A stretch of 64,000 nt of DNA from Planoprotostelium fungivorum (taxonomy: Eukaryota; Evosea; Variosea; Cavosteliida; Cavosteliaceae). Made by a program: the position numbers and the translations under genes. The DNA lies in assembly GCA_003024175.1 (NCBI GenBank), contig MDYQ01000063.1, positions 51,498 through 115,497 on the forward strand. The letters run 5' to 3'. Under the pieces are notes generated by a model, which saw only the letters and a program-made list of their open reading frames with translations, was not told where the DNA came from and did no database searches. Of the stretch, positions 4,469-44,924 are shown piece after piece; within the stretch, counting starts at the first letter, position 1; each line of letters opens with the position of its first letter.

Positions 4469-4663
4469 TGACGTGTGTCACTGTAAACCACTTATAAAAT
4501 ATACGAAGGTTTAAAATGTACCTCTTGTCGATGCACGAGGCGTGAAACTGAAAAGTGTCTGACGATCTAAAGTGTACAAGAAAGACACCGACGCCAAACA
4601 ACCTGCACTCTGAATCGTATCCGTCACATCCTCTCAACGATTCTACTTATTTTATCACATGGA

Positions 4664-5825: not shown

Positions 5826-6102
5826 TGTGTTTGTTATTAGCGTTGTTCGATCTTTGTTGTGGTCTGCTTCTGCTTTGTATTGTGTGTTGTTGGCACTGAT
5901 GTCGTGGGTGATGACGAGTGTAAACGGGTTCGCGACATCTTGCGACTCAAATATTTTCTACAGCTCTCCTCTTGTAGGCTCATCTATGAGAATGATGGAG
6001 AACGAATAATGTCTATGTCTGTGATGGTTTGGAGGTGAATCCGAAGAAAAGGTTGGCGCATCTCTTCCAGGTAAAAGCGTTGTAGATGTACACGTTCAGC
6101 GA

Positions 6103-7815
6103 ATGACGAAAATGAAGGCGGGAGAACGAACAAATAACATCATCATGCCAAAGAGGAAAGAAGATGACATCAGCAAGCTCACAGTGGCTGCTCTGAAAGA
6201 ACTGCTGACAGAGAAGGGTCTCTCAACGAAGGGAAAGAAAGACGAACTCGTTGCTCGATTGAAGAACGGAAAGGAGGAAGAGGTGGACTCAGAAGAGAAC
6301 GAATCGAAAGAGGAAGAGGATGATGAAGAAGAAGAGGAAGAGGAGCCGAAAGCGAAGAAGGTGTGATGTATGTTGTCTTCGACGTCATCTGATTTCACAT
6401 CTTCAGGCCAAAGTAGAGAAACCAAACAAAGAGACTACCTATCCTCCTACTGATTTCACCAAACCAGCGAAGAGAAGGTACATACATTACACATCTATTC
6501 ACGATCTGATCCAATCAGCACCGACATCAAGATCGTCAGTTGGAACGTTGCCGGTTGGGCCTCTGTCATGAAGAAGGGATTCTCTGATTACCTCGACAAT
6601 GAAGATCCAGACATCATTTGTGTTCAAGAGACAAAGATCAAACCTTCAGCGGTAGCAGTTCATTATAAAAATTCGTGTCTCTGACATAATTCAGGTGAAA
6701 GAATTTGCAAATTATCCTCACTCTCATTTCATCGATGGTGAGACGCCGGGATATGCAGGAGTGGGGTGAGACTTTTAAAAGAAAATTTGACTGATTCTTC
6801 ATAGCATCATCAGCAAACACAAGCCCATTCGATGGATCGATGGCATCAACCATAAGACACACGATAAAGAAGGTGGGTGAATTATGTCACAACGATATCA
6901 CAAAGTCATACCTCCTCTCACATCATCACATCGTCTCATCTGCCATCAGGTAGATGCATCACAGCCGAATTTGAAAAATTCTATCTCGTCAACACTTACA
7001 TTCCAAACTCGGGGAGGAAATTAGTTCGCTTGTCCGCCAGAGAAGACTGGGACGTTGAGTTCATGAGATTTATTTCAGATTTAGAGAAGGAGAAACCTGT
7101 CGTGTGGACGGGAGATTTGAACGTGAGTCGGCTCGTTGTAGATGGATGGTAATGTAGAGGCAGGTGGCTCACTTGGAGATTGATCTCAAAAATCCAAAAC
7201 CGAACGTGAGTGTGATGGATAAACCTTCATCTCATCGGACATCATCTCATCGTCCACATCCGACATCGCAGACGTCATGAAAAACGAATGCCGCCATCAT
7301 CGTGACGACATCATCATCACGATTCTGAAACACGGCAGAAAAACAAGACTGCCGGTTTCACCGATGCCGAGAGAGCAGGAATGACAAAGATGCTCGATTC
7401 TGGTTTCGTCGATGCCTTCAGACACTTTTATCCGGAACAAAAGGAGGCGTACACCTTCTGGAGCTTCATGGGAGGTGCGAGGAAGAAGAATGTCGGATGG
7501 TGAGTCGTTCGATATTCCAATCTAATCGTGTATTTTATTTATTTTATTCTACTCTGGCACGTGATGATCGGTCGTGATGACATGGCTGATCGTTACTCAG
7601 GAGATTGGATTACTTCATCGTGTCTAAAAAGTTGGTGTCTCATCTGGGTGACTGTTACATGAGAACTCACATCCACGGTTCTGAGTGAGAAGATCATCAT
7701 CGCGCGACGTCTCCATCTAATGACGCTCAGTCACTGTCCTCTGGTCCTCCATTTTGACTTTGAAAAAGAGTCCTCTGCTCAAACGAAGACAACTACCATT
7801 GTCACTCAGAACTAG
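6103..7815 (+). CDS. AP endonuclease (ExoIII/APE1 family) with N-terminal SAP domain
   Basis: Exon 1 (6103-6366) encodes a SAP DNA-binding motif, LTVAALKELLTEKGLSTKGK with KDELVARL, and an acidic EED-rich linker. Later exons give the ExoIII/APE1 catalytic fold: VSWNVAGW, IICVQETKIK (metal-binding Glu), a TYIPNSG loop, WTGDLNVAH (Asp/Asn catalytic pair), GWRLDYFIVS and SDHCPLVLHF (catalytic His, split by an intron at about 7686-7729). Stop TAG is 7813-7815. The enzyme cleaves DNA 5' of abasic sites in nuclear base-excision repair. An N-terminal SAP domain is also known in plant ARP. Stops of this gene and the next, opposite-strand gene are only 3 nt apart. Confidence 0.93.
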
Positions 7816-7818
7816 ACT

Positions 7819-8777
7819 TTATTTTTCCCCCAATAAAAAGGAGCTCTCGTTGGCATCATGATTCGCCATCTGTGAATGTCTATACTTTGACGGTGGAGGT
7901 TGGCTGTAACCCGTGTCTCTCTGGACCGATGGATTGGCTACAGACGGAAGAGGAGCTGAATACGCGTAGTGATGGCGAGGTCGACCTGCGATGAAGGCAA
8001 AGATGGAACACCCGCAGAAACAGAAGGTGAGGACGGTGAACATGAAACCGACGAGTCCGGCTCCCATGTAACTGGTGAAGGATGAGAATGTGATTCTACA
8101 TTGTGATGATGATTACCTCAGAACACTGGTCTTCTGTCCTGCAAAATCACAGAAAGATAATCGAGAAGAGTCGTCTGTGTCTTCTCTCGTCATGCTGAAG
8201 TGAAGATCGAGGGTATCATTATCGTGTGTGGCAAAGTTGAAGAAGAGGGAGCCACGACACACGGGCCGCGAGAAAGTCTTCACCGTTGAATTGAACGTCT
8301 TTACAGTCACATCAGAGAGGTGTCTAAGGTCATCTGTGAGTGATGGTCGATGCTGATTAACATACGTTTTGGTTTTGTTCGTGTCGCTTAACCGTAGATC
8401 TAGAGGAGAGGACAAATTATTTAGGATGTGAAAAGACATGATGGTACCGAGGGACTCCCTGCTGAGATCGATGCGGTACCAGCCATTCCATGCAGATGTC
8501 ACATTCTTCAGATCGTAAATGTTTTCACCATCATGAGAAGGTAGTAGTGTGTAAACTGATTCGAATCAGGATCCGAAAGACCGTTCGACTCACGATCGGA
8601 ATATCTCTCATTGATCAGTTCAGATGTGTGAATGATGGCTCTTGATATCTGGATGGGAACTATGATGGTCGTCAATGCAAAGGCGAAGGCCAAAATGAAG
8701 AAGACGATTCCGATGATTCTCAGAGGCGTGAGCCACGTTTTGAGCCTAATGGTGTCAATGTCTATCGCAATCCTCAT
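7819..8777 (-). CDS. Two-transmembrane protein with small luminal domain, unrecognised
   Basis: Three exons. Exon 1 starts with ATG at 8775-8777 and has a short basic N-terminus and a helix, LRIIGIVFFILAFAFALTTI. An intron at about 8553-8590 leads to a roughly 130-residue domain (YDLKNVTSAWNGWYRIDL, PVCRGSLFFNFATHDNDTLD, RLSFCDFAGQ) with three Cys and several N-x-S/T sites. The last exon has a second helix, GAGLVGFMFTVLTFCFCGCS, and a Pro/Ser/Tyr-rich tail ending FLLGEK. The topology suggests cytosolic termini and a luminal or extracellular loop. No family was recognised. TAA ends at 7819, directly against the AP endonuclease stop. Confidence 0.7.
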
Positions 8778-9196
8778 TCATTCACTCTGCCGAGACCATC
8801 AAGTCGATTGATTCGGTTTCGCGATCTTCTGCTGACATCGGAAGAACTTGTCATCTCATCTTCTACACAGACGGGTGACCCACACAGACACGAATGTAAA
8901 TGCCCTTTGAAGACGTTAAAAACGAAGATCTTTCGTAAATGAAACACCCACCTCAAGTCGCACCGCGAAAAGCCTGGAGACACCGGTAGAAATAAGACAT
9001 GGCGTCCTACATGATGAGCCTCAATTTGTCTATAACTCACGGTATGAATCACGGGGAGGTTCATCGAATCGTGTATTCAGCCTGATCAAAATATTGTCTA
9101 CACAAATCGGCGATGATAACACCCGAGGGATTTCCGAAATCGCATCCCGCTTCCTGGCCGCAATTTCGCTCCGCAGCGCAAACGAAGAGAGGCAAC
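8778..9196. other. Intergenic region between divergent genes
   Basis: This 419-bp stretch separates the start of the two-TM protein gene (minus) from the EthD gene (plus). Short reading frames on the minus strand (for example 8774-9064) have no protein-like motif or domain. It presumably holds both promoters; no specific element was identified. Confidence 0.5.
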
Positions 9197-9663
9197 ATGA
9201 GCGAGACCACTGAGAAGATCCTCAAGCTGACCATCTTTCACACCGAAACAAAGACCTGACCGAAGAGGAATATCAAGAACATTGGAGCAAAGTGCATGCC
9301 AAGTTGGCGGCACCGTGGTTGGCTCCCAATGGCATTCTAAAGTACATTATTGTGAGTATTCACCGCAGGATCATCACCAGAATGACAATGAGAAAGTATC
9401 ACACACCATCATCCGAGAGAGACAAGATCAAAGAGATGGCGGAGAAGGCAAAGTGGGACGTGTTAGACCACGATGGACACGTGGAGCTGTGGATAAAGAG
9501 CCTCGATGATGTTAAGAGAGCAGTCCAGGATGCTGGCTACCTGACAGACATCTTTCCCGACGAGCACAAGATGTTAGACAAGAGTCGAACGCAGGTCACC
9601 ATCGGCTGGCAAGAGGTCAAGATGATCGACGGGAAGATCGTCGATCAGATCAACACGTATTGA
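9197..9663 (+). CDS. EthD/dimeric alpha-beta-barrel domain protein with apparent frameshift
   Basis: ATG 9197 opens ILKLTIFH, the usual first strand of EthD-type ferredoxin-like proteins, but the frame stops at TGA 9257-9259. The expected continuation NKDLTEEEYQEHWSKVHA is present one frame over, starting within CACACC at 9239-9244. A 45-nt GT-AG intron fits at about 9352-9396, and the rest (YHTPSSERDKIKEM, HVELWIKSLDDVKRAV, YLTDIFPDEHKML) is intact to TGA 9661-9663. EthD-like proteins are small dimeric barrels found in degradation and polyketide pathways. One missing base, or two extra, would explain the break. It may be a pseudogene or a base-calling error. Confidence 0.7.
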
Positions 9664-17033: not shown

Positions 17034-20000
17034 TCAAACTTGAGCTGAGTTGTACTTTTGCATGGGTGAATAGACCAGACCGTTCAACGGATCCTCCGCA
17101 TCATCCTCCACTTCGGGGTCCTTCGCATCATCTTCCAATTCGGGATCTTTGAGAAGATCGGTTGTTTCATCTGCTGTAGGTGATAACATCCTCACGATCA
17201 GCGCGAAATTGGGTCGATCTTGGGGTAACTGCGACCAACAGACTGCATGATGTCAGCTGGATGGCGCACATCTTCTTAATCACTTCTCATCAGAGTTTGC
17301 AGTTGAGGATCTGTGTCTGGGATGTCTAATCGCTTGCCATCACGAACGACTGCCACGGCCACCTCCACTGGGTTGACTCCAGGGAAGGGATCAGATTCGG
17401 TGATGATCTCCCTGATGGACCAATGAGCTCGATGTTGGTGATCTTCACGATGGTAAAGATCTCACCAGATGACGACACCAAAAGACCAAACGTCTGATTT
17501 GGCGGAGTAGTGTCTTTCCTTCAACGCTAAAGAGGATGAGAGGGTGAAGATGATGATCATGCAACGCACCTTCTGGACTCATCCACTTGATCGGTCCTAT
17601 GTTCGTTGCCGTTCTGTTCGCTCTCGTCAGCTGATCATCATCGATGTCTTCGTCTGATGATCAGATGAGAGACTCACTGAGATCCTTCGTTTTCAGCGGC
17701 TTCTGTCACTCTGCTCATGCCAAAGTCAGACACCTTTGGCTCCAGATACTTGGTCAGAAGTATGTTACGAACAGCCAGCTGTCACATCTCGTCAGTCTCT
17801 ACCAACACAAGTGACGACTCACATCTCTGTGGACCACCTTCTCCTTGTGCAGATGGAGCATTCCGAGAGCTAAACGACGTCAGTGCTTCTCATGATGTCG
17901 ATCATGAGGTCGACAGTGGAGTTGATGTCATGGTCAGAGAAAGAGAAATTACCGATTCCATTGATCCACTTCATCTTCAAGCTGAGATCCGTTGGGTTCT
18001 TCCTGATGTAATCGTACATACTGCCTCCATCACAGAACTCGCTGTACTCATCGTCATCATCCATGATCAGATGACGTCATCCAAGACATCTTAACTCACG
18101 TGATCATAGTCAGTGGCTGAGGTGGGATGGTCATACCAATGAACATGACCAAGTTCTGTCTTCGTCAGTCACAGAAACGAGAGAAGAGAGAGGAGAAGAG
18201 AAGGAAGAGAAAAGAGACACACGGGATGAGGTCTCAGATTCTGCAGGATGGCAACTTCTTTCAGGAAGGACTCCACTTGCTCTCTCGTCACGTGTTCTGA
18301 TTTGATCTGCGCTCCATCACACCGTGGAGAAAAGTGGATGACAATACGATGAAACACACCTGCTTTACCGCAACAGAGAGCTCACGCCACGCGGCCTTGA
18401 AGACGATACCGAAGGCACCCGATCCAATTTCCTGCACACCTTCAGTCTCTCTCTCCTACCTCGATCGATCACCTTCATGTCTGTGATCTCGTGGTAATCG
18501 ATCTACAATGACGAATCAGACTCGTTCACAAACAGATATCTCACGATCGATTTCTTCGCAGCACCCAGGTCAACGTTCGTCAAGTCTATGGTCTGATACA
18601 TCACTTGTGTGATCATTCTACAACGTTTCAATAGACGAACGTCCATCCCTTCACCTCTTCCTGAAGGCGAGGGCCAGAATGACTCCCAACAAGATCAGGA
18701 AGACGACTCCACCGATGACTGCTCCCACGATGATCGGTACATTGTTCGTCTTCTGTGGGGCGGGCGTCACGGTGCCTGCTATGATGAACGGTTCGTTTCT
18801 CGTGGGATTTCTCACTGTCGGTTGGAATGGAATCCGTGTAGTTCAACACGACGATTCCACGGTCGGCGAGGGCCTGCAGGATGGAAGCTTGTCCCAGCAA
18901 CTGAACGATGCGTGGAGCTGATCCTTCTGTGGATCTATCGTGGAGACGTCAGATGACGAGTGTGTCACTTGTCATGTCTCACCCGGCAGGTGGTGGATCC
19001 ACGGATGCATCAACGATGACGCTTCCTGCAGTTGTGGAGAGAATGTGGAATCGAGACAGACTAGCGTTGACGACCTGTCAGAGTGTCAGTCGACGTTTGT
19101 GGCATTTACGTGATAGATGCGTACGATACGTAATATACGTATGGGTTCGTACGTCACAAACGATGGAGTTCAAAAAGAAATTTCGTGGAGTGATTCACCT
19201 CAGATACGGCATTCAAGTAGAGTGAAGAATTAAAAGTAGAGATGGAACCCTCGATTCTCATTCTGAACTCTCCCTTGGTGGTCGTATCGCTCACGATGCA
19301 CGTACCACCGCACTGCCTTCGACTCCATTCAGCTACCGGGCATTCGAACAAATTGTCACGCATGTCACACAGACTGACGTTGCTGAGAGGACTCAGCATG
19401 CTGACGTCTTGCAGTCGATTGTGAGATAGATCAAGAGACTGAATGGGTGAGTGGAGGTGTCGTAGGAGACATCATACCTGAAGGGAGGCCGGAAAATCAG
19501 GGACGGTGCCGGATAAATGGTTACCGCTGAGGTTCAAACTGACGAGTGAGGTCATGGTGATGACGCTGGAAGGTATGATTCCATCGATCTGATTTCCCGC
19601 CAGATTCAAAGTTTGAATCATCTTCATGGAGAGTGTGGGGAGACTACCGTTGAAATCGTTGTCCACGAGATTGAGATTCTTCACGGACGATAATTGTCCC
19701 AACCAAGTTACGGGGCCGTAAAACGAATTTCCGCTGAGATCTATCATCGAAGGATCCGACTGTACGTGTGCGATCAGTTTCCCGCCAAAATGTACAATCT
19801 CACCGCGATGCTAGGAATGGATCCAGTGAATGAATTATTTCCCAGCGAGATCTGTTGCAGAGATCTTATGTTCCAAAACCCTTGAGGCATATTACCGTAC
19901 ATGCGACAATCGGTCATGTCGATGGATTTAAGGTTTACGAGGTTGGCGATACCCTCATCCACCGTCGATCCGATGGGATTTCTCGACAGATCCAAGATCT

Positions 20001-23000
20001 ATCAATAGATTCAGCACGAACGAAATGCAGATCTACAACGATCTCACACTCACCGTGAGAGATCTCAGATTCGACAGTTGCGTCAGATTCGTCAACTGAT
20101 TGTTTCCCAAGGATAATTCCTTCACCGAATGAATCGACTGCACCAGACTGAACCTCTCACCTGCAGGTTGACCAGACTGTCCATGGAAGGTAAAGTGCCG
20201 GTGAACGAGTTGTTGAAGAGACGAAGTGTTTGGAGGGAAGAGAGGGCCGTGAGCGCCGCGGGAATCGAGCCGTACAATCGATTATTGGAAGCATCCAGAT
20301 ACTGATGACGTCACGATGACGTCACGTGACTTCGTTCACCTGTAGGAAGGTGCAGATGGAGAGTTGGGAGGACAGGTAAGAGGTGAAGTAGTTGTTGTTG
20401 AATTTGAGTGTGACAAGAGATTGACCTGCGACGTATAGATTGTACGTAGATCCGCTGAATCTGTTGTACGATACGTCTACGTACGATAATTGCGGCGAAT
20501 TATAAGAAGGAAAACTTCCCGTGAAAGAGTTGTTGCGTAGCACGAGCCTACGTACGTCAGTGATTGGTTTTAGGGTTTAATTCTGACCTGTACAATACGT
20601 TCATGCCGTTCAAGTTGGGTATCGATCCGGAGAATAGATTGCTCGACAGATCTAACAGCTGCATGTAAGGTAGATTCGTCAACCAGCTCCACTGCGATCC
20701 CGTGAACAAATTGTCGTTGACAATGAACGCTGCCAGGGCGTACGTGCTGTTGACCGTGGGAAAATCTCCGGAAAATTGATTGTGTTGTAGATCGAGCAAG
20801 AGTAGACCCCTCGAATCTGGAAATCGAGTGAAATTTCCGGTGAATTGGTTGTAGCCGAGAGACAAGACGGAGAGTGATGTCAGGTTGTAGATGGAAGGAG
20901 GTAGAGATCCGACAAAGTGATTGTTCGTTGCAACGAAGCCCCACATGCTCTTCAAGTTGAGGAAGATATCGGGGAGCTAAAAATGTCAAGGGTGGTCGTA
21001 CGTACAGTACGCACGGGACCGGATAATTGGTTGTTGGGAATTCGAAAGTTCTGGATGTTGATGAGGCTTCCCAGGGAGAGAGGAAGTGTTCCGTTGAACT
21101 GATTGTTATCCTGTGTAGAGTGAGTGACCATTCGAATACATCGCATGCATCGTAGAGGTAGGACTGATTGAATCTCACCAATACAAGATAGTTCAGTCGA
21201 GTTAGATTACCCAACCACTCTGGAATGCCGCCTGAGAGGAAGAATAAATGTCCTAAATCCGTCTACAACGCTGATCTCACCACTGAAGGAATTGTAAGAC
21301 AGTCCCAATTGTACCAACCCCAGGCAGTTGGATAGATCCGGGAAATTTCCAGACATACGGTTCTGACCCACGTCCAACACTTGCATGTAGATCGAAGTCA
21401 GGGCGGGAATCTGTGATGACGTCATCACACGTCATCACACGTCTCCCTCACCGTTCCAGTCATTCGATTGTTGTTCAAGATGAGTTGTTGTAGGAGAGGC
21501 ATGTTGGCCATACAGTCTGGTAGGCTCCCCGTCATGAGATTTAGATCGAATTGGAGGACGAATAGATAAGTTGCGCCACAGATGGAGGGGGGAAGGGGTC
21601 TGGTGGAGGTCAGGAGTGGCGGGTTGTAGATGGACTCACTGGTCGAGGATATTACTGGAAGCGTAGAGGTAACCTAGAGATGTGCAGTGAGTTAAAGGGG
21701 GTAGACTTCCTTGCAGCTGATTCTGTGCGATGTTGAGCACCTGAAGATGTTAGACACGCGTTTCCGTGATGCTTGCTGATATCAGTCGGCTCACCAGTAG
21801 TTTCGTCATATTGCTGACAAAGTCGGGAACGATTCCAGATAAGAGATTATTCTGGATGTTCAACTGTTCACACTGCACGAGTCGAGATAGACTGATGGGA
21901 ATCGAACCTGAGTGTGTCATTCGTGAACGCTTCGCGGATGATTTTACCGGTCATAAAATTATCGTTGAGGTACAGATTCCTCATGTAAGTCAGATTCCCC
22001 AGGAAATCAGGGAGATTTCCATCCAATCTACAACGATCAGTCTCAAGGTGTGACCGTGGACTCGATGATGTCACAGATGATATCTTCACCCGTTGTGGGA
22101 GAGATCCAGCGTGGTCAACTGGGTCAACTGGCTGATTGTAGATGGGATGTCACCAGTGACCTGCAGGTTGTACCGGATAGTCAGTGAGTCCAGATGGGTC
22201 ATCTTCCCAATGGATTCTGGAATATTTCCTGAAAAGTTGAGATGACTTGTGATGACATCATCACCACTCACCCACTAGATTATTACCGGTAAATTCTATC
22301 AGGAAGACTCTACCATCACGGTCGCAGGCAATATTATCGAAATGACAATATTGAGAGCTGTTGTAGATGGGCAGAGACCAACCGAAAGAAGAAGTCCAAC
22401 CGGAACCTGTCCGCGTCATTCACCTCTCCATGATTTTCCTGGAATTTTACCTCCCATTTTCACGTAAAAGTCAGACAGAGCATCACAGTCTGGACAGCCG
22501 GTGACCGGTGGTACAACGATGCTGATGACGTCACACATGGGCACATTCGTTTGAGACGGTGTCATGAACCCGTAATCGTACATGGACTGCAGACTCTTCG
22601 TCACGTCGGAGACATAACTCCAACCGGAGTAGGACCAGCCTCCCTTAGCCAAGGAGATAGCCTGATGACGTCAGATGACGTCATCATTCGTCACGCTCAC
22701 TTGCAACTGAGCGGCGAGCATGTCTCCCGTTCGATCGAAGGATACGGCGTTGCAAGTGTACCATGGGTCCACAAAGAGGGATTTAGGGTTTACCGAATTG
22801 TAGTTGGTGATGAATTGAGAAATGCTCGAGGAAAATTGTTGGATCTTTTGGTCGTCCGTAAATCCCGTTGTAGTCTGACAGATATCAGAACGTAATTACA
22901 CTTTCGCGAAAGTGTAATTACGTACGATGCAGGCCGGCTGATGGTATTTCAACCACAAGTTGGTGAATGTGGGAGTCAAATTGATCCAATCTGCACTCGT

Positions 23001-25660
23001 GATGTCTTGTCCATCCGGTGCGTCGAGGATGTAGATCGCATCAGCAGATGCCCCCCTCAAAGCTTCATAGCTGTGCAAGTAATAACTGTCGTGATTCAGA
23101 CGAAATCTACGTGAAATCTCGACTCACTCGCCCAGGCCATTAAAATCAGTATTGGCTCCGGGGCGGTTCAACACGGAAATTCCGATGAAATTTGGATGGT
23201 CTCCGTATCGATTGACGATCAAGTCCATCGTATCTTTCATGCATTGAACGTTCACAGCGTACTGCGTGAAATAATAATTGCCCGGTGAATTTCCCGAAGA
23301 TGTGGAGTCGGTGTTCTGAGCTCCCGGAGCAGCGTAGACGTCTAAGATGATGCCCAGGTCCCATTCTGAAGCCCAGCGGAAAGCTAAGTCGAGGTAGTGG
23401 AGGGAGCCGTAGGTGAAGTCCTTCGGCTGAACGTTGCTACACGCATTGAGCGGACCGCTCTGAAGAGGTGAGATCGGTTCATCGTCATCTCCTCATCACG
23501 ATCATTCTATCGTTATCTTCTTATCATCATCTTATCATGATTGTCGTCTGATCGTTATCGTTTGAATATTGCACTCACGAATATATCCCACGATGACCAC
23601 CAACCGATTGGTATCTTCATCGCGTTGAGCCCCAGCCTGGCCATCTTCTCGAAGTCGTATTCGTTCACGAACGACGCCCAGTGTTTCTGCATCACGGTGT
23701 AGCCCTTATTACCCAGACACTGCTGCAAGAGATAGGTACCGGGGTACTGCGTTGCAGAGCAGCCATACGATGTCCACAGAGAAGGTGTGACGCGAGAGTC
23801 TAAGACCAACCAGCCGTCGAGCGAAGCGGCGCGGACGGGTGTGGAAGAGTTTCTGACTGATTGTAGACGAGACTGACCGCAAGATGTCACGGGTTCGTAT
23901 CGAATGGAAGGGGAAGTGGTGGGGGTGACGGCTGACGTGGCTGCGCTGATGAAAGAGTGAGTTGCGAGGGAGGAAATGTAGAGCATGACTCACGCTGTAG
24001 TTCTTGTAGAGGAGGAGACGCTGAATGCACTACCACCACTGACGGCGAGACAAGAGGAGATTCCAGTGAAATTTTGGGGGAACCAACCCTGGGACAGGGC
24101 GTGCATCATGGATGTTGCGGTATCGTTTGATTTCCAACTCCAGAAGGCCCAACCCTGGGCTCTGGCGAAAACCTGTTGAAATATCGATGAGATTCTACAC
24201 TCACACTCGAACAGATCATGATGATGATGTGATGACGATGATGCGATCAGTGTGATGTGATGACGATGATGCGATCAGTGTGATGTTGTCAACACGACGG
24301 AATTTACAACACACCTGCAATTGTGCCTTGGCCAATTGGCCTCTGTTCTCTTCCGAAACGCCACCGTTCGACCAAGAGCCGATGAACAAAGGTTTCGGAT
24401 TGACCTTTCACGTTTGAGCCCTCGATTCAGTGTGGGACTCACCATAAAGTATCCACTGATGTCTTCGTTGTCTTCAGTGTAAACATTCTGAATCCGCGTG
24501 TTGTCATCGACGATCGGACCCTGATGATCTCATCAGATGATCTCTCCATCAGATGATGGTGAAGAAGAGAGGTGTATACCCTGCTCTGATTGTAGTGGAC
24601 ATCAGTATAGACGCTCTTGAAGCTGTTGGGATCGCTCATGTATGCTACTGATGCGGAATCGTTTCCAGTCTGAAAGGGTACGTTGAGAGGGCTGATGATG
24701 AAGATTCCGTCGGTACTACGCTGTCTGTAGGAACTGTATGCATTCGAGTAGTACCTGTGATGTCAGGTCACTCCATCTACAATTGTCGCTCACGGTGACA
24801 GATAATCGGTTGAGAAATTGCGTACAGAGTTTCCGGGCTCGTCCAGCAAGCTGATACCCAAGAAGGCTGTCTGATTGCAATAGCGGTCGACATAGCCTTC
24901 GAAAGAGTAATAGGATTGGAGGACATCTTGGCTGCTCAAGTCCCAGCTGTAAGAGCCGATGAACGGTGGTGCACTTCCTTCCTGATCGGGATGAGACTTT
25001 ATAAAGGGAGAGGGGATCACCTGACCGTTCTGCGATCCAGGATGAGCGTGCATGTCAAGCAAGATGCCGATCCCGTGTCGATCCCCCCAGATGAAGGCGG
25101 CGTCTATGTATTTGAGAGTCCCCACGTGGAAATCTGTGGGGCTGACGGATAAACTGGCATTCGGGGCTCCTCCCTCCCGGGGTCAGGGATGATGGGATGG
25201 TGATTGGAATGATGGTCTCACCTGAAGATCATAGATGGACCACCAACCGATGGGAAGACGGACTGCATTCAATCCCTGGGCGGCCATCGCGATGAAGTCC
25301 GTTTCGTTGATCCAATTACTCCAATGTTGTTCGAGGGTTGCATTCAGTAGCTGCAATCATCAATCACTCTAAGAGAGATTCTCTAGTTGACGGTGTCACC
25401 TCTGGTGATTGATTGCTCAGACATTTCTCAAGGAGATACTGCCCGAATGCAACAGAGGGATCACAATTGTTCTGTGTCCACAAGTGGGGTGCCATATAAT
25501 ATTCTGCCAACAGCCAAGAGCCTAGATTGACTGCTCTGATCGGGCTGCTACCATTCTTCACAGCATCCAATCGATCTCGAAGACATGTTGCATCGAGTTG
25601 AGCCTCCGCGAGTGAAAGAAGCAAAACCACAAGAGTGGCAAGCCTGATGAGCTGCTGCAT
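17034..25660 (-). CDS. GH5-GH5-LRR receptor tyrosine-kinase-like protein (copy 1)
   Basis: ATG complementary to 25658-25660 opens a signal peptide (LIRLATLVVLLLSLAEAQ). Domains in order: GH5 exo-glucanase-like domain 1 (AVNLGSWLLAEYYMAPHLW; GISLLDEPGN; LFIGSWSNGG; 25560-24000), GH5-like domain 2 ([35 protein letters not shown]; 23900-22560), a plant-like LRRNT (CDALSDFYVKMGGSGW), many LRRs (22270-19480), a Cys-rich cap ([20 protein letters not shown]), a transmembrane helix (PIIVGAVIGGVVFLILL, about 18720) and a kinase domain: [13 protein letters not shown] lysine, VHRD|LAVRN catalytic loop, [16 protein letters not shown]. It ends at TGA 17034. HRDLAxRN and PIKWMSPE favour tyrosine-kinase-like specificity. 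Both GH5 folds lack the nucleophile Glu, so they probably bind rather than cleave glucan. Roughly 2,000 residues and about 40 introns. Confidence 0.88.
22891..22922. repeat. 32-bp perfect palindrome in receptor copy 1 intron
   Basis: The half-site CGTAATTACACTTTCG is followed immediately by its exact reverse complement, giving a 32-bp palindrome without a spacer. It occupies most of the intron between the exon beginning TTTGFTDDQ and the exon ending KYHQPACIV (minus strand). The transcript would form a very stable hairpin. Confidence 0.95.
24229..24284. repeat. Exact 28-nt tandem duplication in receptor intron
   Basis: Two identical 28-nt units beginning GTGATGACGATGATGCGATC lie head to tail within an intron of receptor copy 1. 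The unit is itself rich in GATGA. Likely replication slippage. Confidence 0.9.
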
Positions 25661-26137: not shown

Positions 26138-28300
26138 CTATTTGATCGACGACGTTGATTTTCGTGGCTTGTAGATCGGAGTCGGCCTCGGGGTCGGAAC
26201 CCCGGTTGGCGACGCCATCAGGCTGTTGAAATTGAGGCTGGGAAGGCTGGGACTCGCGTGTGGCTTTATCTTTGGTGACTTTGAAAAGATTCGGCTCAAA
26301 AAGGTAGGTGGTGAATTCATCTGGTGGGGTCAATCGTGTCTACAACGTTGTAGATGGACATTACCCGTCGGCTGTTCGGTGAACGCTCTGGTGATCCTGG
26401 CGGGAAACGGGGGGAGCTCAAATTGGCCGCGCTGATGAAGGAGGGGGTGTGGGAGACGCTGGGACGTCTCTCAAAGAAGGAGGGTGGAAGCTGTCCGGCT
26501 TCTGTTTCTCCTCCTTCCAATTGGAGGGCCAAACTGGGGGGATGAGAATTGTGCGATGTGTCGATGGTGAGATGATGTGACGTTGATGTGATGATTAGAT
26601 GATGTGATGATGTGAGATGTGATGATTAGATGATGTGATGATTAGATGATGTGAAGCCGGTTAGATGTTGATGAAATAACATTTGATGAGATGCAAAGTG
26701 ATGTGACGGTGTGATACAAAGATACGATGGTGTGATGATGAACGACAACGTCTTCATCGATGATGTTCATGATGTTCTCACTCTTCTATGGAAGAATCGC
26801 TCGTCCTTCGTATGACCTTCAGATCGACCGAACTCGTCGGTGAGAATTCCAGTGAATCTAATATGGACTTGTCTATCCTCATTTCATTATCTACACAAGC
26901 ACCTGCACCACACGTCAACCACGACATCCACCTCTTACCACTCACTCCTGAAATAATCCAATATCTTACGCCCGAATCTGACGAATGAAATGAGGGAACG
27001 ACGTTTCATGTTTTTCATCTCACCTCTTCCTGGATAATTCGAGGGCCGTGGTGCCGCTCGCGTTGACGGAATTCAGATTGGCCCCGGCTCCCAATAAGAC
27101 GATGACTCCGTCAACGTGGCCAGCAGCGGCGGCGAGGTGTAAGCTTCTTTCATTCAGCATCGATGGTGTTGAATCCGTTGTAAATAAAACGAAATAAAAT
27201 ATTTTCTCACCTCGTGTTTCCGTCATTGTCCGTCGCATCGATAGGATACCTTCGATTGGCCAACAGGATCATAGAAGCCACACAACCTCTATACGTGGCG
27301 AGGTGCAAGGCATTATATCCTTTAGAAGTAGTCCACAGATAATCACCCTCGGTCTTCTCCAAGATGAGACGTAAGATGTCTGTGTGGATGACCGAACAGT
27401 GGAGTGGTGTCTCTCCTTCTGTATCTATGTATCAACGAGAGGTGTTCACCATCAGATCATGGTGATAACATCAAGATGGAGGTGGGTGATGTGATAATCA
27501 CCATTATCTCGGATGGAGGCATCGGACCCTGAATCTAACAGAGCTTGGCAGATCTTCAAGTGACCTTGTGTTGCCGCCAGATGAAGAGGCGTCCGACCAT
27601 GAGAATTTCTCACATTTACGGAAGCGCCCAGCATCAGGAGAGAATTAACGACCGAAGTTCTTCCCCAATCTGATTCCACGTTAGAAAGATCCGAGTGAAT
27701 CGCATTTGACGTCGACATCGTGAATCACCTGCTGCAATGTGTAACGGTGATTCACCATCTTTGCAGAGTGCATCGATATACTCTACAGAATTCGTCGCTC
27801 GTAATAGTTCCGCCAGTAATTCATGATCTCCACTCTGCGCGACTTCTGCTATGGCAGCGAGCAAGTTCTCGTGATGGTTATTGAATACAGGAGGTGCGGA
27901 TAGAGGAGGTGATGTGTGTGTGCCTCTCGGGGACAATGCGAGCGCGTTGGTGTCTCTCCTCTCTCTGGGTGGGGAGATCATGTTGATCAGACCTCTCGAC
28001 GCACCTGTTGGTGATAGAGTCAAAAACCGCCCGCTACTTGTCTTTTCTCTCCCTTCTGATTGTGAATCAGAATCAAACGCGATGATTCACCGGATCGACG
28101 ACATGTGACATCGTCGACGGTTCCAGCCCGCTACTATATAATATCTCACCCGTGTTGGAATCTCTCTCGAGGAAATTGAGAGTAGCATGCTTCGCCGCAG
28201 CTATGGACTTGCCCTTCGACTTTGGCCTCTTCGGTGCATCGCTTCCATCTGCAGAGTCCGGTGAGAGATTCGAAGCCTTTGGAGGACTCTCCTCTGGCAT
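26138..28300 (-). CDS. Ankyrin-repeat protein with Pro/Ser-rich C-terminal tail
   Basis: ATG complementary to 28298-28300 opens a charged, low-complexity N-terminus (PEESPPKASNLSPDSADG, KRPKSKGKS). At least five ankyrin repeats follow: GDHELLAELLRAT, GESPLHIAAG, GRTPLHLAATQGHLKICQAL, GETPLHCSVIHTDILRLIL, GYNALHLATYRGCVASMILL, RSLHLAAAAGHVDGVIVLLG (27900-27040). The frame continues through LELSRKRFGRKILDYFRS into an acidic piece (NEMRIDKSILDSLEF, 26790-26890). It then crosses a long repeat-filled intron into a Pro/Ser-rich tail (RRPSVSHTPSF, TPRPTPIYKPRKS) ending at TAG 26138. Probably a cytosolic scaffold. No catalytic domain seen. Confidence 0.8.
26339..26354. repeat. Second copy of the 16-bp TCTACAAC/GTTGTAGA palindrome
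   Basis: Identical to 1424-1439 and again fully inside a 44-nt intron, here of the ankyrin gene (minus-strand donor GTAATG, acceptor CCACCAG). Confidence 0.9.
26565..26655. repeat. GATGTGATGATTA minisatellite-like tract
   Basis: Imperfect repetition of GATGATGTGATGATTA fills much of the roughly 250-nt intron of the ankyrin gene, with about five units. It lengthens an otherwise short intron. Confidence 0.8.
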
Positions 28301-36776: not shown

Positions 36777-39700
36777 TCACTCGGGGGTCAGAGGTCCATA
36801 CACGATTCCGCTGAGATGAGCTGAAGAGATCTCCACCTTTGGTTCTTCCTCCTTCTTCATGTCTTCAACTTCGTCCGTGGACGGGTTCAGCGCCCTGACG
36901 ATCTGTGCAAAATTGGGACGATCTTGAGGGAGATCCGACCAACAGACTGCATGATGTTCAGATGATGTCGGACGGATGATGATGCAACTCACTTCGCATG
37001 AGCGTCTGGAGCTGTGGATCGGTGTCTGGGATGTCCAAACGTCTGCCTTGCGAGACGACAGCGACCGCCACCTCCACCGGGCTGATGCCCGGAAAGGGGT
37101 CAGATTCGGTGACGATCTCCCTGTGTGGATGAGTCACGCGTGATACGAAAGATGACTATCTCACCAGATGACGACACCGAAAGACCAAACGTCTGATTTG
37201 GCGGAGTAGTTCCTCTCGGTCAGAGCTGTTTGGTTGAGTCGTCGAACGATGAAAGGGATGAGACGCACCTTCTGGACTCATCCACTTGATCGGTCCTATG
37301 TTTGTTGCCGTTCTGTTGACTCTCGTCAGTACAGCGATACTGCATCAGAGGAGAAGAGAAAAACTCACTGGGCTCCTTCGTTTTCGGCGGCTTCTGTCAC
37401 TCTGCTCATGCCAAAGTCAGACACCTTTGGCTCCAGATACTTGGTTAAAAGTATGTTACGAACAGCCAGCTGTCACATCTCGTCAGTCTCTACCAACACA
37501 AGTGACGACAGAAGCCGCCAGAGCGAGGACTCACATCTCTGTGGACGACATTTTCCTTGTGTAGATGAAGCATTCCGAGAGCTGAATCACATCAGTACAT
37601 CGATGAGAATATCACTTACCGATTCCGTTGATCCACTTCATTTTGAGATCGAAATCGACTTTGTTTTTTCTGATGTAATCGTACAGACTACCTCCATCAC
37701 AGAACTCGCTGTACCCATCGTCATCATACTGTGATCAGATGACGTCATCCAAGACATCTTAACTCACGTGATCATGGTCAGTGGCTGAGGTGGGATGGTC
37801 ATACCAATGAACATGACCAAGTTCTATCATCGTCAAACACAGAAACGAGAGAAGAGAAAAGAGAAGAGAGAAGAGGAGAGAGAAGAGAGAAGAGAAGAGA
37901 GAAGAGAGAAGAGAAGAGAAGAGAGAAGAGAGAAGAGAGAAGAGAGAAGAGAGAACAGAGAAGAGAGAAGAGAAGAGAAGAGATGAGAAGAGAGAAGAGA
38001 GAAGAGAGGAGAGGACAGATGAAAGAAGGAAGAGAAAGAGAAGAGACACACGGGATGAGGTCTCAGATTCTGCAGGATGGCAACTTCCAACAGGAACGAC
38101 TCCACTTGCTCTTTCGATACGTGTTCTGACTTGATCTGTGCGATGTCAGCACTCCATCAGAGTGCATTTGAATTTTGACGCGACATGGAGAAGAAAGTGA
38201 TGAATACCTGTTTGACAGCAACAGAGAGTTCACGCCACGCGGCCTTGAAGACGATACCGAAGGCACCCGATCCAATTTCCTGCAGACTTTCAGACTTCTC
38301 CTCTGCTTTCACGATTCACCTTCATGTCTGTGATCCCATGATAATCGATCTACGTGGTCGTCAGACACTTTACGCTCAGATGACTCACGATCGATGTCTT
38401 TGCCGCTCCCAGGTCCACGTCGGTCAGATCGATCGTCTGGTGCAATATGTTTGTGATGAATCTACAACGTTTCCTCGGTGCGAAATCTCATCGCAATCTC
38501 CCACCTCTTTCTGAAAGCTAAAGCGATGATGACAGACAACAGAACGAGGACCAGTACAGTTCCTCCCACTACAACGCCGATGATGATGGGAAGATTATTT
38601 GAACTGGGAGCTGCAGGCGCGGCCGATCCAATGCCTGTCAAATCGTGATCAGAAATTTCGGTAAAATAAATTGAGATATACGATGATCTACAACGGTGTA
38701 GTCGACTCACTCGACTGCGTGAGAGTATCGACTGGAATGAATTGAGAGTAGTTCAAGATCTGAAATCCGCGATCTGCGAAGGATTGCTGGATGGAAGGTT
38801 GTCCTAACATCTGCACAACACGAGGCGCAGAACCTTCTGAAGATCTGTCGGAACACATCAGGTGTGAAATCTCGTCGTTCATCGTCTCACCCCTCGAAAG
38901 TGGGATCCACTGATGCATCTACAACGACGCTTCCTTCTTTAATGGATATGATGTGAATTCGAGACTCAGTGATGTTCAACACCTGTCTCCCATCAAAACA
39001 GTGTAACATATATAGTCCACGTCAATAATGCAGGATGAATGGACTATCTTGTATGTGATGAAGATAGAGAAACATCCACTCACATCAGCTATCGAAGAGA
39101 GATAGAGGGACTCATTGAAAGTGGACAGAGAACCAATCATCCTCATTCTGAACTCTCCCTTGGTAGTTGTATCGCTCACAATGCACGTACCACCGCACTG
39201 CCTTCGACTCCATTCAGCTACCGGGCATTCGAACAGATTGTCACGCATGTCACACAAACTGACGTTGCTGAGAGGACTCAGCATGCTGACGTCTTGCAGT
39301 CGATTGTGAGATAGATCAAGAGACTGAATGGGTGAGTGGAGGTGTCGTATGAGACATCATACCTGAAGGGAGGCGGGAAGATTAGGTACGACACCGGAGA
39401 AACTGTTATGACTGAGATCGACGGTAGACAGTGCGGTCATCCCTATGATGGATGGGATGCTACCGCTCAGATTATTTCCCGCCAAATTCAAATTTTGAAT
39501 GAGTCGAGGAAGATCTGGTAGGCCTCCGTCGAAGCTGTTCCCGCTCAAATCGATTCTCTTCGCAGATGACAGTCGACTCAGCCACATCAGCGACCCGTGG
39601 AAAGAATTCCCGCCAAGATCGATCACCAGAGGATCCGACTGTACGCCATCAGTTTCCCGCCAAAATGTACGTGACGTCATCACCGCTATGCTGAGGATGG

Positions 39701-42700
39701 AACCTGTGAGCGAATTTTCTCTCAGTATGACTTGTTGCAGAGATCGTAAATTCCAGAATTTATCTGGTAGGTCACCCCTCAATCTACAATTGGACATGTC
39801 TATCGTTCGCAGACTGGTCATCTTGGCCACACTACCGTCTACAACAGATTGAAGGGGATTATTGGACATATTGAGCGTCTACAACGAGTCAGATGGAGTA
39901 CATATAGAAGTTCTTTCACCGTGAGCGAGGGTAAATTGTACAGTTGGGTCAAATTGCTGACCAACCGATTCCCGCTCAAATCTAATTCCTGTTCTCGTCT
40001 CAATCGATTCGCTCCTCTCTTCTCCTGACCTGCAGTCTGACCAACTTGTCCATCAAGGGTATAGACCCTGATATCTGATTGCCTCCCAATCTCAAGGTCT
40101 GAAGATTCTCTAGAGATCCCAAGAAGGAGGGGATCTGCCCGTAGATACCCGAATTAGTACCATCCAAGATCTGTATGACGTCACGTGACGTCATTCCATG
40201 TCAGTTCTCACTTGTAGGTAAGTACAGACGGAGATCTGTGGGGGAATGGAAGAGGTGAAGAGGTTGTCGTTGAACAGAACAGTCTGGAGCGATGCACCGT
40301 TGGTGAAGATGCTAGCGAGTGAACCGGTGAACGCATTGAACGATATGTCGACGTAATACAGCTGAAACGAAGTACACAAGGGGAAATCGCCAGAGAAACG
40401 ATTGTTTCGTAGAATGATTCTGTACGTTTCAGATGGACGTCTTCCGGTGGTAAATTCTCACCTGCTGATGGTTCGCATGTTGGTCAATTGAGGTACCGTC
40501 CCTGCGAACTGATTATCAGACAGGTCTAAGACTTGTAAGTTGGGAACGTATCTCAACCAACTCCAATCGGATCTCGTGAATCTGTTCTTTGCCGCCAGAA
40601 GGGTAGACAGTGCCGGACTGTTACTGATGACCGGAAAATCTCCGGAGAATTGATTGTCTCTGACGTCCAAGAGGAGTAAGTTGGAGGCATTGGAGAAACC
40701 GGTGAAATTTCCGCTGAGAAGATTCGAATGGATGGAGAACAATTGGATGGCGGTCAAGCTGTAGAGAGAAGGAGGAAGAGCTCCGGATAATTGATTGACT
40801 GACAGATCGACGTCGATGATCGTTGTAGACGAGGCGTTCAGTACGTCTGGTATCTGTTCGGGTCAATGGAGAAAGTGTGGGAGTTGACTCACAGTGCCCG
40901 TCAGACGATTGCTCTGCATGTGCAGGTAGCTTAGGTAACGGAGATTTCCAAGAGAATCTGGGATACTACCGTTGAATTGGTTGTTGTCCTGTGATTTTCA
41001 ATTTCGATCCGAAATTTCAGGTAGAACTCACCAAAGCGAGGCGCGATGGGTAGGTAAGATCTCCCAGCCAGTCAGGGAGGGCATCTTGAAGTGAATCAGG
41101 TGACATATGTGAGTCACGTGACCCACTTGCGAATGAATTGAAGGAGAGGATGATACTCTGAAGATTCGTACAACGAGACAAGTCCGGGAAATCCGCAGAA
41201 AACAAGTTCTGTCCCAAATTGACGTATTGCAGAGACTTGCAATATAAAAGGGCGGGAAATTCTCCCACGAGTTGATTTTGGGATAATGATATGGACTGCA
41301 CGTCTCAATTTTGAACGAGACTATCATCCAAGTTCACCGTCAATCTCTTGCTGTTAAAGTATGGGATGCGGCCAGACAACAGATTGTTCTGCAGATCGAT
41401 TTCGGACAACTCTTCTAAAGCGGAGAGAGAAGAGGGGATCGTACCTGTTACGTGTCAGATGATATCACGTGAGATATCACCACCCGTCAGGAAGTTATCG
41501 TTCAGGTACAAACTCTTCACACGCGATCCGAAATTTCCGGGAAGGGGTCCGCTCAATCTACAACGCGTCATATTTAACACATCGTCTGCAACGTCTCACC
41601 CATTAAAAGATAGATCTAGAGTGGTCAATTGAGAGAGACTCGACAGAGTGGAAGGTATAGATCCACTGAGTTGTAGATGATGTGAGATGATCAGAGTGTC
41701 CAAGTGGGCGAGCTTCCCCATGGAGTCTGGGATGCTTCCTGGAACGATTCGATACGTACGTTACGTCTCGGACTCACCGATGAGATTGTTACTGACGAAC
41801 TGGAGCATCTGCACTCTCCCACTCTTATCACAGATGATATTTGTGAAATTACAATATTGAGAACTGTTGTAGATGGGCAGAGACCAACCCATCGAGTGAG
41901 TCCAAAGGGGTCCTGTACGTATCAACTGTACGCGATCGTGACATTTCATCGAGTTCCACCTCCCGTCATCTCGTACAGGTCGGTCAGTGCATCGCAGTCC
42001 AGACAACCATTGAGAGAAACGTTCGTGGCGATGACGTCACACAGCGTCACGTTTGTTTGTGAAGGGGTGAGGAGACCGTAATCGTAAACTGATTGTAGAT
42101 TGATCCTGGGATCTTGCGTATACACCCAACCACTGAATACCCAGCCACCCGTTGCCAGGGCGACCACCTGATGACGTCATAACACGTCACATCACGACAC
42201 TCACCGGTAATTGGGCCTGAATGACCTCGTAGTACCGACTGATCGATACACCGCAGCCGTTCCAAGCGTCGATGACGATCGGGCGAGTGGTGCTCGAGCG
42301 GTAGGCCAATAGCATGTCTCTCAATCGACCTGATATGTCGTTGATCTTGTCGTCATCTGTATAAGCTCGAGTGGACTGCATCGATCGATCAGATTCCATC
42401 TACAGATCTCAGCTCGAGCTCACTTGACAAGGAATGCTCTTGTAACCGAGCATGACATCGGTTGCGTTTAGAGGTAACGAGGCATCCAGGTACGTGGCAT
42501 TGATCGGTTGACCTACGGGGAGACCATAGATGATCCAAGCCGTGGTAGAATATTGTCTCATCTTTGCATACGTGTTTCTGTGCATCCTCGTGAGATCTCC
42601 ACGAAATTTCTACGAGTTTTCTCAATTCACCGTATGGACAATGATCCAGTGGAGGAGACCATGTCGATACCCAGAAAGTTCGGGTGGTCGCTGTATCGGG

Positions 42701-44924
42701 CTAAAAATAGCTCCATGGAGGAACTCATGCAGTCTGACGTCACTGATGCGGTGGGCCAATTTCTCATGTCAAGGATGACACCGAGTTCCCACTGAGAAGC
42801 CCAGTAAAACGCCAGATCTAAGTAATGGAGACTTCCCACGGGAAAATTCCCAGTGGAAATGGTGGGACATGTGTTCCCAGGCGGATCCTGATGTCAAAGT
42901 CAATTCTCTCACGATACTAAGAGGTGAATGTCCCATGAAACTCATTTGCGATCACCTGCTGGTCATAGATGCTCCACCAATCTACGGGAATGAAGACGGC
43001 ATTGAGACCACTCCTAGCCATCTTCTCGAAGTCGGATCGATCCACCACCGTCGCCCAGTGTTTCTGCATCACGGCGTAGCCGTTACTGCCCAGACACTGC
43101 TGCAAGAGATAGGTACCGGGGTACTGCGTTGTAGAGCAGCCATACGATGTCCACAGAGAAGGTGTGACGCGAGAGTCTAAGACCAACCAGCCGTCGAGCG
43201 AAGCGGCGCGGACGGGTGTGGAAGAGTTTCTGACTGATTGTAGACGAGACTGACCGCAAGATGTCACGGGTTCGTATTGTACGGTAGTTGACGTGATGGG
43301 AGGTGCAGCGGTGGAGAGAGATCTGCGAGACATCAGAGGAGAACAGACGATCATCCGGCAGGTTGTAGAATGGTGCCTCACGCTGAAGTCCACGGAGAGG
43401 AGTAGATGCTCGATATTCCACTACCGCTGGTGACACAGGTGGGGATTCCAGTGAAACCTGGCGGAAACCATCCCTGGGACAGACCATACATCATCGAAGT
43501 GGTGGGATCATTCGATTTCCAGCTCCAAAAGGTCCAACCTGCCTTGGCTTTACCAAAGACCTAGAGTCTCAGTTCACTTCATCATCATGATGTGGAATTC
43601 ACCTGCAGTTGTGCCTTGGTCAACTCCCACATTTTATTCTTGCTGACTCCACAATTGGTCCACATGCCAATGAATAGATCTTTGTTCGACGCCTGCGACG
43701 GACGTCAATTTATGACTCTAAACGGAACCCACCGAGTTGAAAGAGTTGATGATGTTTGCCTGCTGGTTGTAGACGTTCTGGATGCGTTCGTCATCTGATA
43801 AGCTGACAGCTCCCTGAATCTCATCAGAGAACACGATGGAGACATGGTCATGATGACGCTCGCGATGATCGTGAGACGTGATACGTCTTCTCACCCCACA
43901 CTGACTGAAATGCATGTCCACGTAAACCAGACGAAAACTGACAAAGATATTCATCCACAGCGTCTCCGTACCATTCTGCATGTACGCTGGGCTGATGACG
44001 AACTGTACGGTCGGATGCGTCACTCTCATCTGAGTGAACGTCGTGGAATAGTAACTGAGACAATGTCAGTCTCTTCCATGAATGTGTTTCAGGTCACCTT
44101 CTCAACACGTCTGGATAGATGAGACCCCCCGGCTCGTTCATGGCCGAAATCGCCAAGAAGGCGGAGGATGTGTTGTACCTCGCAGCGTAAGCTACGGTGG
44201 CTTCCGTGCTCTTCGCTCGGTTCGGGTCAGTGTACCAAGAGTAGGAGCCGTCGTTCGTCGTGGGAGCACTTCCTTCCTGAAGAGGATGAGTCATCGCCTT
44301 TTATCGGTGGTGTCACCTGTCCGTTCTGAGATCCAGGGAGGGCGTGGAGATCGATCATGATGGCGATTCCGTATTTGGATCCCCAGGCGAATGCCTTGTC
44401 CAAATATTTGAGAGCTCCTTTGGTATAATTTGGATATTGACTTCCGACGCCTCCCTGCCGTGCGGTGTGGGTGACAATCAATGATTATCATCTCACCACC
44501 GTATCATAGATGGACCACCAACCGATGGGGATGCGGACTGTATTCATTCCCTGCGCAGAGATGGCAATAAAGTCCGTCTCATTGATCCACGTGCTCCAAT
44601 GTTGTTCCAGAGTTGCATTGAGGATCTGATATGATTAAGGACAAAATTCTTCAGACTAGAACTCACCGCCTGAGATTGATTGCTGAGACACCTCTCTAAA
44701 AGATATTGACCGACGGACACTTTCGGATCGCAACCATTGTTGTCCCACAGATGAGGTACCATCGAATACTCAGCCAGAAACCAAGAGCCCAGATTGACTC
44801 CTCTGATGGGACTGCCTGTGGACCTCTTTATAACGCTACTGAGTCGATTCGACAGACACGTGTTATCGAACGTCTGTGGTGATACAAGATGGACGAGAAG
44901 GCAGAAGATGACGACCCCTCTCAT
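36777..44924 (-). CDS. GH5-GH5-LRR receptor tyrosine-kinase-like protein (copy 2)
   Basis: This is the paralogue of the gene at 17034-25660, with the same strand and order. Signal peptide [17 protein letters not shown]5-like domain 1 ([39 protein letters not shown]); GH5-like domain 2 (FLGIDMVSS at the acid/base site, [10 protein letters not shown] at the nucleophile site); LRRNT ([12 protein letters not shown]); LRRs (41640-39360); Cys cap; TM helix ([18 protein letters not shown], about 38580); kinase with [38 protein letters not shown], ending at TGA 36777. Domain 1 keeps the acid/base Glu but has Met at the nucleophile; domain 2 has lost both. Kinase catalytic residues are intact. Near-identical tracts shared with copy 1 suggest gene conversion. 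Confidence 0.88.
37847..38046. repeat. 200-nt polypurine (GAGAAGA)n tract
   Basis: The plus strand is almost pure purine, GAGAAGAGAGAAGAG-type repeats, within the kinase intron of copy 2 (between LQNLRPHP and NLVMFIG). The transcribed (minus) strand is thus a long pyrimidine run before the acceptor. The homologous intron in copy 1 (about 18172-18222) has only about 50 nt of it. Confidence 0.95.
40175..40194. repeat. 20-bp perfect palindrome in copy 2 LRR intron
   Basis: ATGACGTCACGTGACGTCAT is its own reverse complement and nests two TGACGTCA sites around CACGTG. The equivalent intron in copy 1 (about 20303-20340) carries related TGATGACGTCACGATGACGT. Confidence 0.95.

Follow-up and report, generated by a model that had tools for sequence, protein, structure and literature searches.

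Receptor kinases with a glycosidase-fold ectodomain are already known. Tobacco CHRK1 is a chitinase-related receptor-like kinase (RLK), described as having no chitinase activity for want of a glutamic acid (PMC10573068), and 91 plant sequences were reported to combine a GH18 domain with a kinase, such ectodomains being treated as predicted enzymes (PMC5485988). CHRK1 is the closest known system to the subject of this report, W1, a predicted gene in a 64,000-nt stretch of Planoprotostelium fungivorum DNA (contig MDYQ01000063.1; hereafter the window, in whose positions coordinates are given), in which two tandem GH5 domains (GH5a and GH5b) precede leucine-rich repeats (LRRs), one transmembrane (TM) helix and a kinase with motifs of the tyrosine kinase (TK) type. 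Both proteins are receptor kinases whose glycosidase-fold ectodomain lacks a catalytic Glu, but the fold is GH18 in CHRK1 and GH5 in W1, and LRRs are not mentioned in the available part of the CHRK1 description (PMC10573068). What is new here is the combination of tandem GH5 domains, LRRs and a kinase with TK-type motifs, with a catalytic Glu missing from both W1 GH5 domains. In the open-licence literature, as far as its available text goes, no description of a GH5-LRR-kinase receptor was found, which is weak evidence of absence. The CHRK1 kinase is of the plant RLK type. With moderate confidence, W1 is read here as a type-I TM receptor kinase in which the exo-1,3-glucanase (GH5) fold, apparently no longer catalytic, would serve as a glycan sensor that signals through the kinase.

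In insects, the glucanase-like domain of bGRP does not hydrolyze glucan and takes part in immune recognition (PMC6272582). The bGRP/GNBP proteins resemble the proposed W1 receptor in using a non-hydrolyzing glucanase-like domain for recognition, but they act via a protease cascade, whereas W1 has a TM helix, a kinase and GH5 domains. They are soluble and of the GH16 type. Plant LRR receptor kinases consist of an LRR ectodomain, a single TM helix and a kinase; unlike them, W1 has a tandem GH5 pair in front, TK-type kinase motifs and no Pfam LRRNT_2. Fungal exo-1,3-glucanases (Candida Exg/XOG1 and Aspergillus ExgA), which we take to belong to GH5 subfamily 9, were the best PDB matches of both W1 GH5 domains. 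These Candida and Aspergillus proteins are active enzymes, whereas the nucleophile position in W1 is occupied by Ser in GH5a and by Pro in GH5b. Among amoebozoans, single-TM tyrosine kinases and SH2 proteins have been described in Physarum, and 21 tyrosine kinases in Acanthamoeba (PMC4758236); these receptor-like kinases share with W1 the single TM helix, the TK consensus and the presence of SH2 proteins alongside, but a GH5 ectodomain is not mentioned in the available part of their description (PMC4758236). The glucan receptor named in the available text of PMC5723301 is macrophage Dectin-1, and no amoeba receptor is named there.

Structure of W1 and its paralogs

The gene structure was read from genomic DNA alone. 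Splicing by hand revealed 43 GT-AG introns of 37-142 nt each and zero in-frame stops between the ATG at 25660 and the stop at 17034 on the minus strand, in exact agreement with the limits given in an earlier note on this DNA. A custom spliced protein-to-genome aligner, written for the W1 check and queried with the W1 protein, returned 43 of the 44 exons identical to the manual splice, the last differing solely by the stop codon. The score was 11040 at the W1 locus, compared with 271-397 over eight controls (both window loci read on the wrong strand, five unrelated stretches or strands from the window, and one shuffled protein). The earlier note had also raised the possibility of in-frame stops near 23985 and 22400. 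None were found; introns lie at these junctions (23993-23946 and 22450-22407, respectively), the frame is open after splicing, and both introns are present in all eight paralog models. W1 intron positions were found on average in 6.5 of the eight paralogs, a count that is helped by the use of family members as queries for the paralog models. A pseudogene was ruled out, the 44 exons being open and the kinase motifs kept.

W1 has the layout of a receptor kinase, with a signal-peptide-like start, an ectodomain, a single TM helix and a kinase within one predicted protein (Table 1). The signal-peptide and TM calls rest on hydropathy, which gave an N-terminal peak and a single TM helix. No Pfam family was returned for GH5b at E<=1, and its similarity to PDB 8z2w is mostly over the first half of the domain. 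No GH18 domain was returned by Pfam for W1, GH5 being found instead. About 30 LRRs are present; a regular expression gave 34 raw matches over the whole protein, some of which overlap and one of which falls in the signal peptide. The one-gene GH5-GH5-LRR-TM-kinase layout proposed in the earlier note was thus borne out by the manual splice, the aligner, Pfam, PDB and hydropathy, including its HRDLAVRN and PIKWMSPE motifs, while its plant-style LRRNT was not, since Pfam returned no LRRNT family. LRRNT_2 was absent among the ten families returned at E<=1 in the scan of the LRR cap part, and this cap is only a look-alike of the plant-style LRRNT.

Judged from its own genome, W1 belongs to a family with about ten genes of this kind. 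W2, the second copy in the window, is 59% identical to W1 overall, and seven further loci (L069-L075) were fetched, all of which gave spliced models with the order GH5a, GH5b, LRR cap, LRR, JX, TM and kinase (JX is a label coined in this analysis for the membrane-proximal region). The nine models (W1, W2 and L069-L075) align colinearly. Aligner scores at the eight paralog loci were 4172-9513, five of them best with a closer paralog as the query. Pairwise protein identities are 41-61%, except for L072/L073 (88%). The W1 model runs to the stop, that of W2 ends 3 amino acids (aa) before one and that of L069 4 aa before one; the others stop earlier, at the end of the query or locus, and C-lobe exons were seen by tblastn for L071, L074 and L075 among the matches listed. 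A TM helix was found by hydropathy in all nine models, with one extra weak peak within the LRRs of L069.

Family members served as queries for the paralog models, and unspliced matches are therefore a better guide to the order of parts. Searches of the genome with GH5a, GH5b, the kinase and JX-TM revealed ten places where GH5, JX and kinase matches follow one another in that order along a single strand: C118, C453, C142 (304 kb), C142 (320 kb; kinase seen by tblastn), C174, C434, both C90 loci, W1 and W2. The architecture of the tenth family place, C90:112301-119663, fits by match coordinates. These results bear on the proposal that two or more neighboring genes, one for a secreted GH5 protein and another for an LRR kinase, were wrongly joined, a reading that the derivation of the models from genomic DNA alone would permit. 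It is extremely improbable, and was ruled out for W1: the nine models are colinear, the junction introns are open and common to all eight paralogs, the unspliced matches keep the same order and strand at ten places, and trees of the separate parts give the same groups (see below).

Catalytic residues of the GH5 domains

Eight canonical residues (R, H, N, E, H, Y, E and W) were scored in one alignment of 32 GH5 domains, comprising nine GH5a, ten GH5b and 13 other GH5 loci. The nucleophile column was set by the intact L074, whose HSYQ and GEWS align to HHYQ and GEWS of 1eqp, with GEWS also on GEW of 8z2w. A phmmer alignment that placed GSWS of W1 on LDISQWS of 1eqp was overruled by the match of L074 GEWS to GEWS of 1eqp; GSW of W1 also aligns to GEW of 8z2w, with a score that does not exceed chance level.

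In W1 GH5a, the nucleophile is replaced by Ser, the canonical N by D and the Y by N, while the acid/base Glu is kept; GH5b has Arg at the acid/base position and Pro at the nucleophile. That both domains are working enzymes was ruled out by the loss of a catalytic Glu in each, and with both broken, the ectodomain should bind rather than cut. The Candida enzyme with an engineered Glu292Ser change is reported to bind glucan without cutting it, and the Ser of W1 GH5a would presumably be the natural counterpart of this change. Substitutions differ among the paralogs. GH5a of W2 has Met at the nucleophile (GMWT) and S in place of Y, with NEP kept; that of L069 has Lys at the acid/base position, Q in place of H and T in place of Y, and that of L072 has Asp at the acid/base position and F in place of W. 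Both Glu residues are present in five of the nine GH5a domains (L070, L071, L073, L074 and L075), and all eight canonical residues in four. The acid/base Glu is found in none of the ten GH5b domains and the nucleophile Glu in four, while 39 positions are invariant across all ten. These patterns suggest that in all members scored GH5b would be a pseudo-enzyme, and that GH5a ranges from intact to broken, with W1 apparently broken in both.

All eight residues are retained at the 13 other GH5 loci, which lie on C445 (four places), C134 (two), C21, C458, C231, C240, C39, C388 and C434 (230 kb), some of them clustered; these were modelled over the GH5 domain only and taken as single-domain. The 25 loci given resolve into 17 distinct places, namely these 13, L001-L003 and the C90:112 kb member. 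L001-L003, of another GH5 type and with poor scores (125-153), were left out. The GH5a domain of C90:112 kb was also left out, as too degenerate or mis-modelled, and its GH5b was counted, hence the nine GH5a vs ten GH5b domains. Only the best matches were modelled, which may favor intact genes; GH5 matches left out of the models are those on C448, C412, C413, C459, C131, C60, C445 (1.6 kb) and C134 (221 kb). At G000:C448:25464-32271 (plus strand), several GH5-like matches lie in a row with no kinase among the matches listed, possibly a multi-GH5 protein or a cluster.

The intact GH5a domains bring in a different reading, in which the family would consist of membrane-anchored enzyme-sensors: GH5a would cut glucan at the cell surface in most members, GH5b or the LRRs would sense either the product or the occupied site, and W1 and W2 would be degenerate. 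The presence of both Glu residues in five of nine GH5a domains, and of all eight residues in four, is consistent with such a family, as is the alignment of L074 GH5a to the nucleophile motif of 1eqp. It is nevertheless considered unlikely, given that one Glu is lost in the remaining four (the nucleophile in W1 and W2, the acid/base in L069 and L072), which fall in two tree groups and include both window genes.

Kinase, phylogeny and selection

The W1 kinase contains GSGAFG, VAVK (Lys1834), HRDLAVRN (1925-1932), DFG (1945-1947) and WMSPE, and equivalents of these motifs occur in all nine family models, with HRDLAVRN or HRDLAARN, and PIKW or PVKW, in each. HRDLAxRN and P-I/V-K-W are TK-type motifs. 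Among single-kinase PDB chains, W1 best matched plant CTR1, a tyrosine kinase-like (TKL) protein, with 178 bits and ABL1, a TK, with 169 bits; the top PDB row was an EGFR chain containing two kinase copies of ~125 bits each. From its motifs, the kinase looks active. Genome matches included 79 for SH2 and 43 for PTP, of which one gene can yield several.

In the 32-row GH5 tree, GH5b formed one clade (100/99) and GH5a another (86/93); the root was drawn at the midpoint, and no order of origin can be taken from it. The nine-row trees of GH5a, GH5b, LRR and JX, rooted on L075 by choice, agree on three groups (W1, W2 and L069; L070, L071 and L074; L072 and L073), the first of which is without printed support in GH5a and JX. 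Such agreement is expected if the parts travel together. Ratios of nonsynonymous to synonymous substitution (dN/dS), obtained by Nei-Gojobori counting with no significance test, were 0.08-0.15 over all parts of L072/L073 (GH5b 0.12, GH5a 0.10, kinase 0.09, LRR 0.08), and by this measure GH5b of this closest pair is under purifying selection. Outside this pair dS is high, often >1; the W1/W2 linker gave a dN/dS of 0.76. Two tracts, of 145 bp (23756-23900 = 43133-43277) and 92 bp (19373-19464 = 39258-39349), are also identical between W1 and W2, beside stretches with an identity of 40-70%; their kinases are mostly 80-96% identical. These tracts probably reflect gene conversion.

JX-TM-kinase matches were also observed on at least eight contigs without a GH5 match (C362, C200, C194, C99, C173, C182, C329 and C40, among the matches listed), and at C90:347 kb with no GH5 match nearby; the scores of the latter equal those of C194, and the two may be copies of one another. 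Such loci may represent a larger receptor kinase family, within which GH5 may have been either gained or lost. The contigs without a GH5 match (for example, C362 and C200) would also suit a role of the GH5 pair as a passive spacer or mask, with the LRRs binding protein or peptide as in plant LRR receptor kinases. This role is judged improbable, since every one of the nine models contains GH5a as well as GH5b, the invariant positions extend over ten GH5b domains, and in L072/L073 GH5a and GH5b are under roughly the same constraint as the LRRs.

Table 1. Predicted features of W1 and the second window copy, by position in the window
Feature	Residues	Position	Strand	Evidence
W1, whole gene, 44 exons	2107 aa	17034..25660	-	manual splice and spliced aligner
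Signal-peptide-like stretch	1-20	25601..25660	-	hydropathy peak from aa 4
GH5a, exo-1,3-glucanase-like	39-400	24047..25546	-	Pfam PF00150 E=8e-12; PDB 1eqp E=4e-28
GH5a acid/base position, Glu kept (DEP)	Glu229	24838..24840	-	alignments
GH5a nucleophile position, Ser for Glu (GSWS)	Ser338	24375..24377	-	paralog alignment; column set via L074 vs PDB 1eqp, 8z2w
Ser/Thr/Pro-rich linker, spans intron 23993-23946	401-439	23882..24046	-	sequence
GH5b, degenerate exo-1,3-glucanase-like	440-800	22533..23881	-	PDB 8z2w E=2e-23, 1cz1 E=4e-21
GH5b acid/base position (NRP)	Arg639	23163..23165	-	alignments
GH5b nucleophile position (VDPW)	Pro736	22764..22766	-	alignments
LRR N-terminal cap, spans intron 22450-22407	813-872	22273..22496	-	sequence; aligned in 9/9 models
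LRR domain	873-1608	19373..22272	-	Pfam LRR_1, LRR_8; regular expression
C-terminal LRR cap and membrane-proximal JX region	1609-1748	18741..19372	-	matches many other genome loci
TM helix	1749-1772	18669..18740	-	hydropathy 3.05
Kinase	1811-2059	17181..18475	-	Pfam PK_Tyr_Ser-Thr (PF07714) E=1e-72; motifs
Acidic C-terminal tail, with VYSP and KYNS	2060-2107	17037..17180	-	sequence
W2, second full paralog, 42 exons, W1-like architecture	1980 aa modelled (3 aa short of stop)	36789..44924	-	spliced model

Upstream of W1, ankyrin-repeat-like open frames were noticed by eye in the list of open reading frames (27020-27724, minus strand).

Proposed mechanism and significance

In the favored receptor reading, a tandem exo-1,3-glucanase (GH5) fold would have been placed ahead of an LRR-TM-kinase receptor. 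The GH5 pair would bind a beta-glucan-type wall polysaccharide, of prey or of the organism's own wall, which the W1 ectodomain would hold without cutting, and the LRRs would position or dimerize the receptor. Clustering on the wall surface could then activate the kinase, which would phosphorylate itself and its partners, and SH2 proteins would read the phosphorylation. Catalytic death, glycan binding and the ligand, dimerization, tyrosine specificity and the downstream pathway are what we infer from the predicted proteins, and glucan sensing and phosphorylation by W1 are plausible. For the family as a whole, an enzyme-plus-pseudoenzyme receptor, in which GH5b would be a sensor in all members scored and GH5a catalytic in some but broken in others, and which would sense wall glucan and signal by tyrosine phosphorylation, is put forward tentatively, at somewhat less than an even chance.

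Several observations weigh against the receptor reading. GH5a retains both Glu residues in five of its nine members. The GH5b pocket is remodelled, with Arg changed to K, N or F in seven of ten domains, the first His to Y, R or T in five, and the Trp column, a less certain one in a stretch with gaps, changed in six; such a pocket may have a ligand other than beta-glucan, or GH5b may serve as a scaffold. The inactive glucanase-like domain of insect bGRP mostly does not bind insoluble glucan (PMC6272582), and the LRRs might be the ligand site. Constraint on GH5b is weaker outside the closest pair, with dN/dS values of 0.45 for W1/W2 and 0.36 for L071/L074. In the kinase tree, L069 does not group with W1 and W2, the other two groups being kept. 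Finally, the N-terminal hydropathy peak is above the cut-off in just three of the nine models, several of which are without a Met start.

The source of the polysaccharide admits a further reading, in which the receptor would sense the wall of the organism's own cyst or stalk rather than prey. Plant receptor kinases that monitor their own walls exist, and the GH5 glucan fold would be equally suited to an own-wall glucan; the present results, however, fit own and prey wall alike, and this more specific assignment is thought rather improbable.

If the receptor reading is true, W1 would exemplify a route from a digestive enzyme to an immune-type receptor in a single-celled eukaryote, the host being taken as an amoeba. 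It would parallel plant CHRK1 and the insect bGRPs, but with the glycosidase fold linked to LRRs and to a kinase with TK-type motifs. Since one and the same domain occurs naturally in intact and in broken form within the family, enzyme and sensor could be compared side by side. If W1 senses prey, it would offer a molecular handle on the recognition of fungal walls by amoebae.

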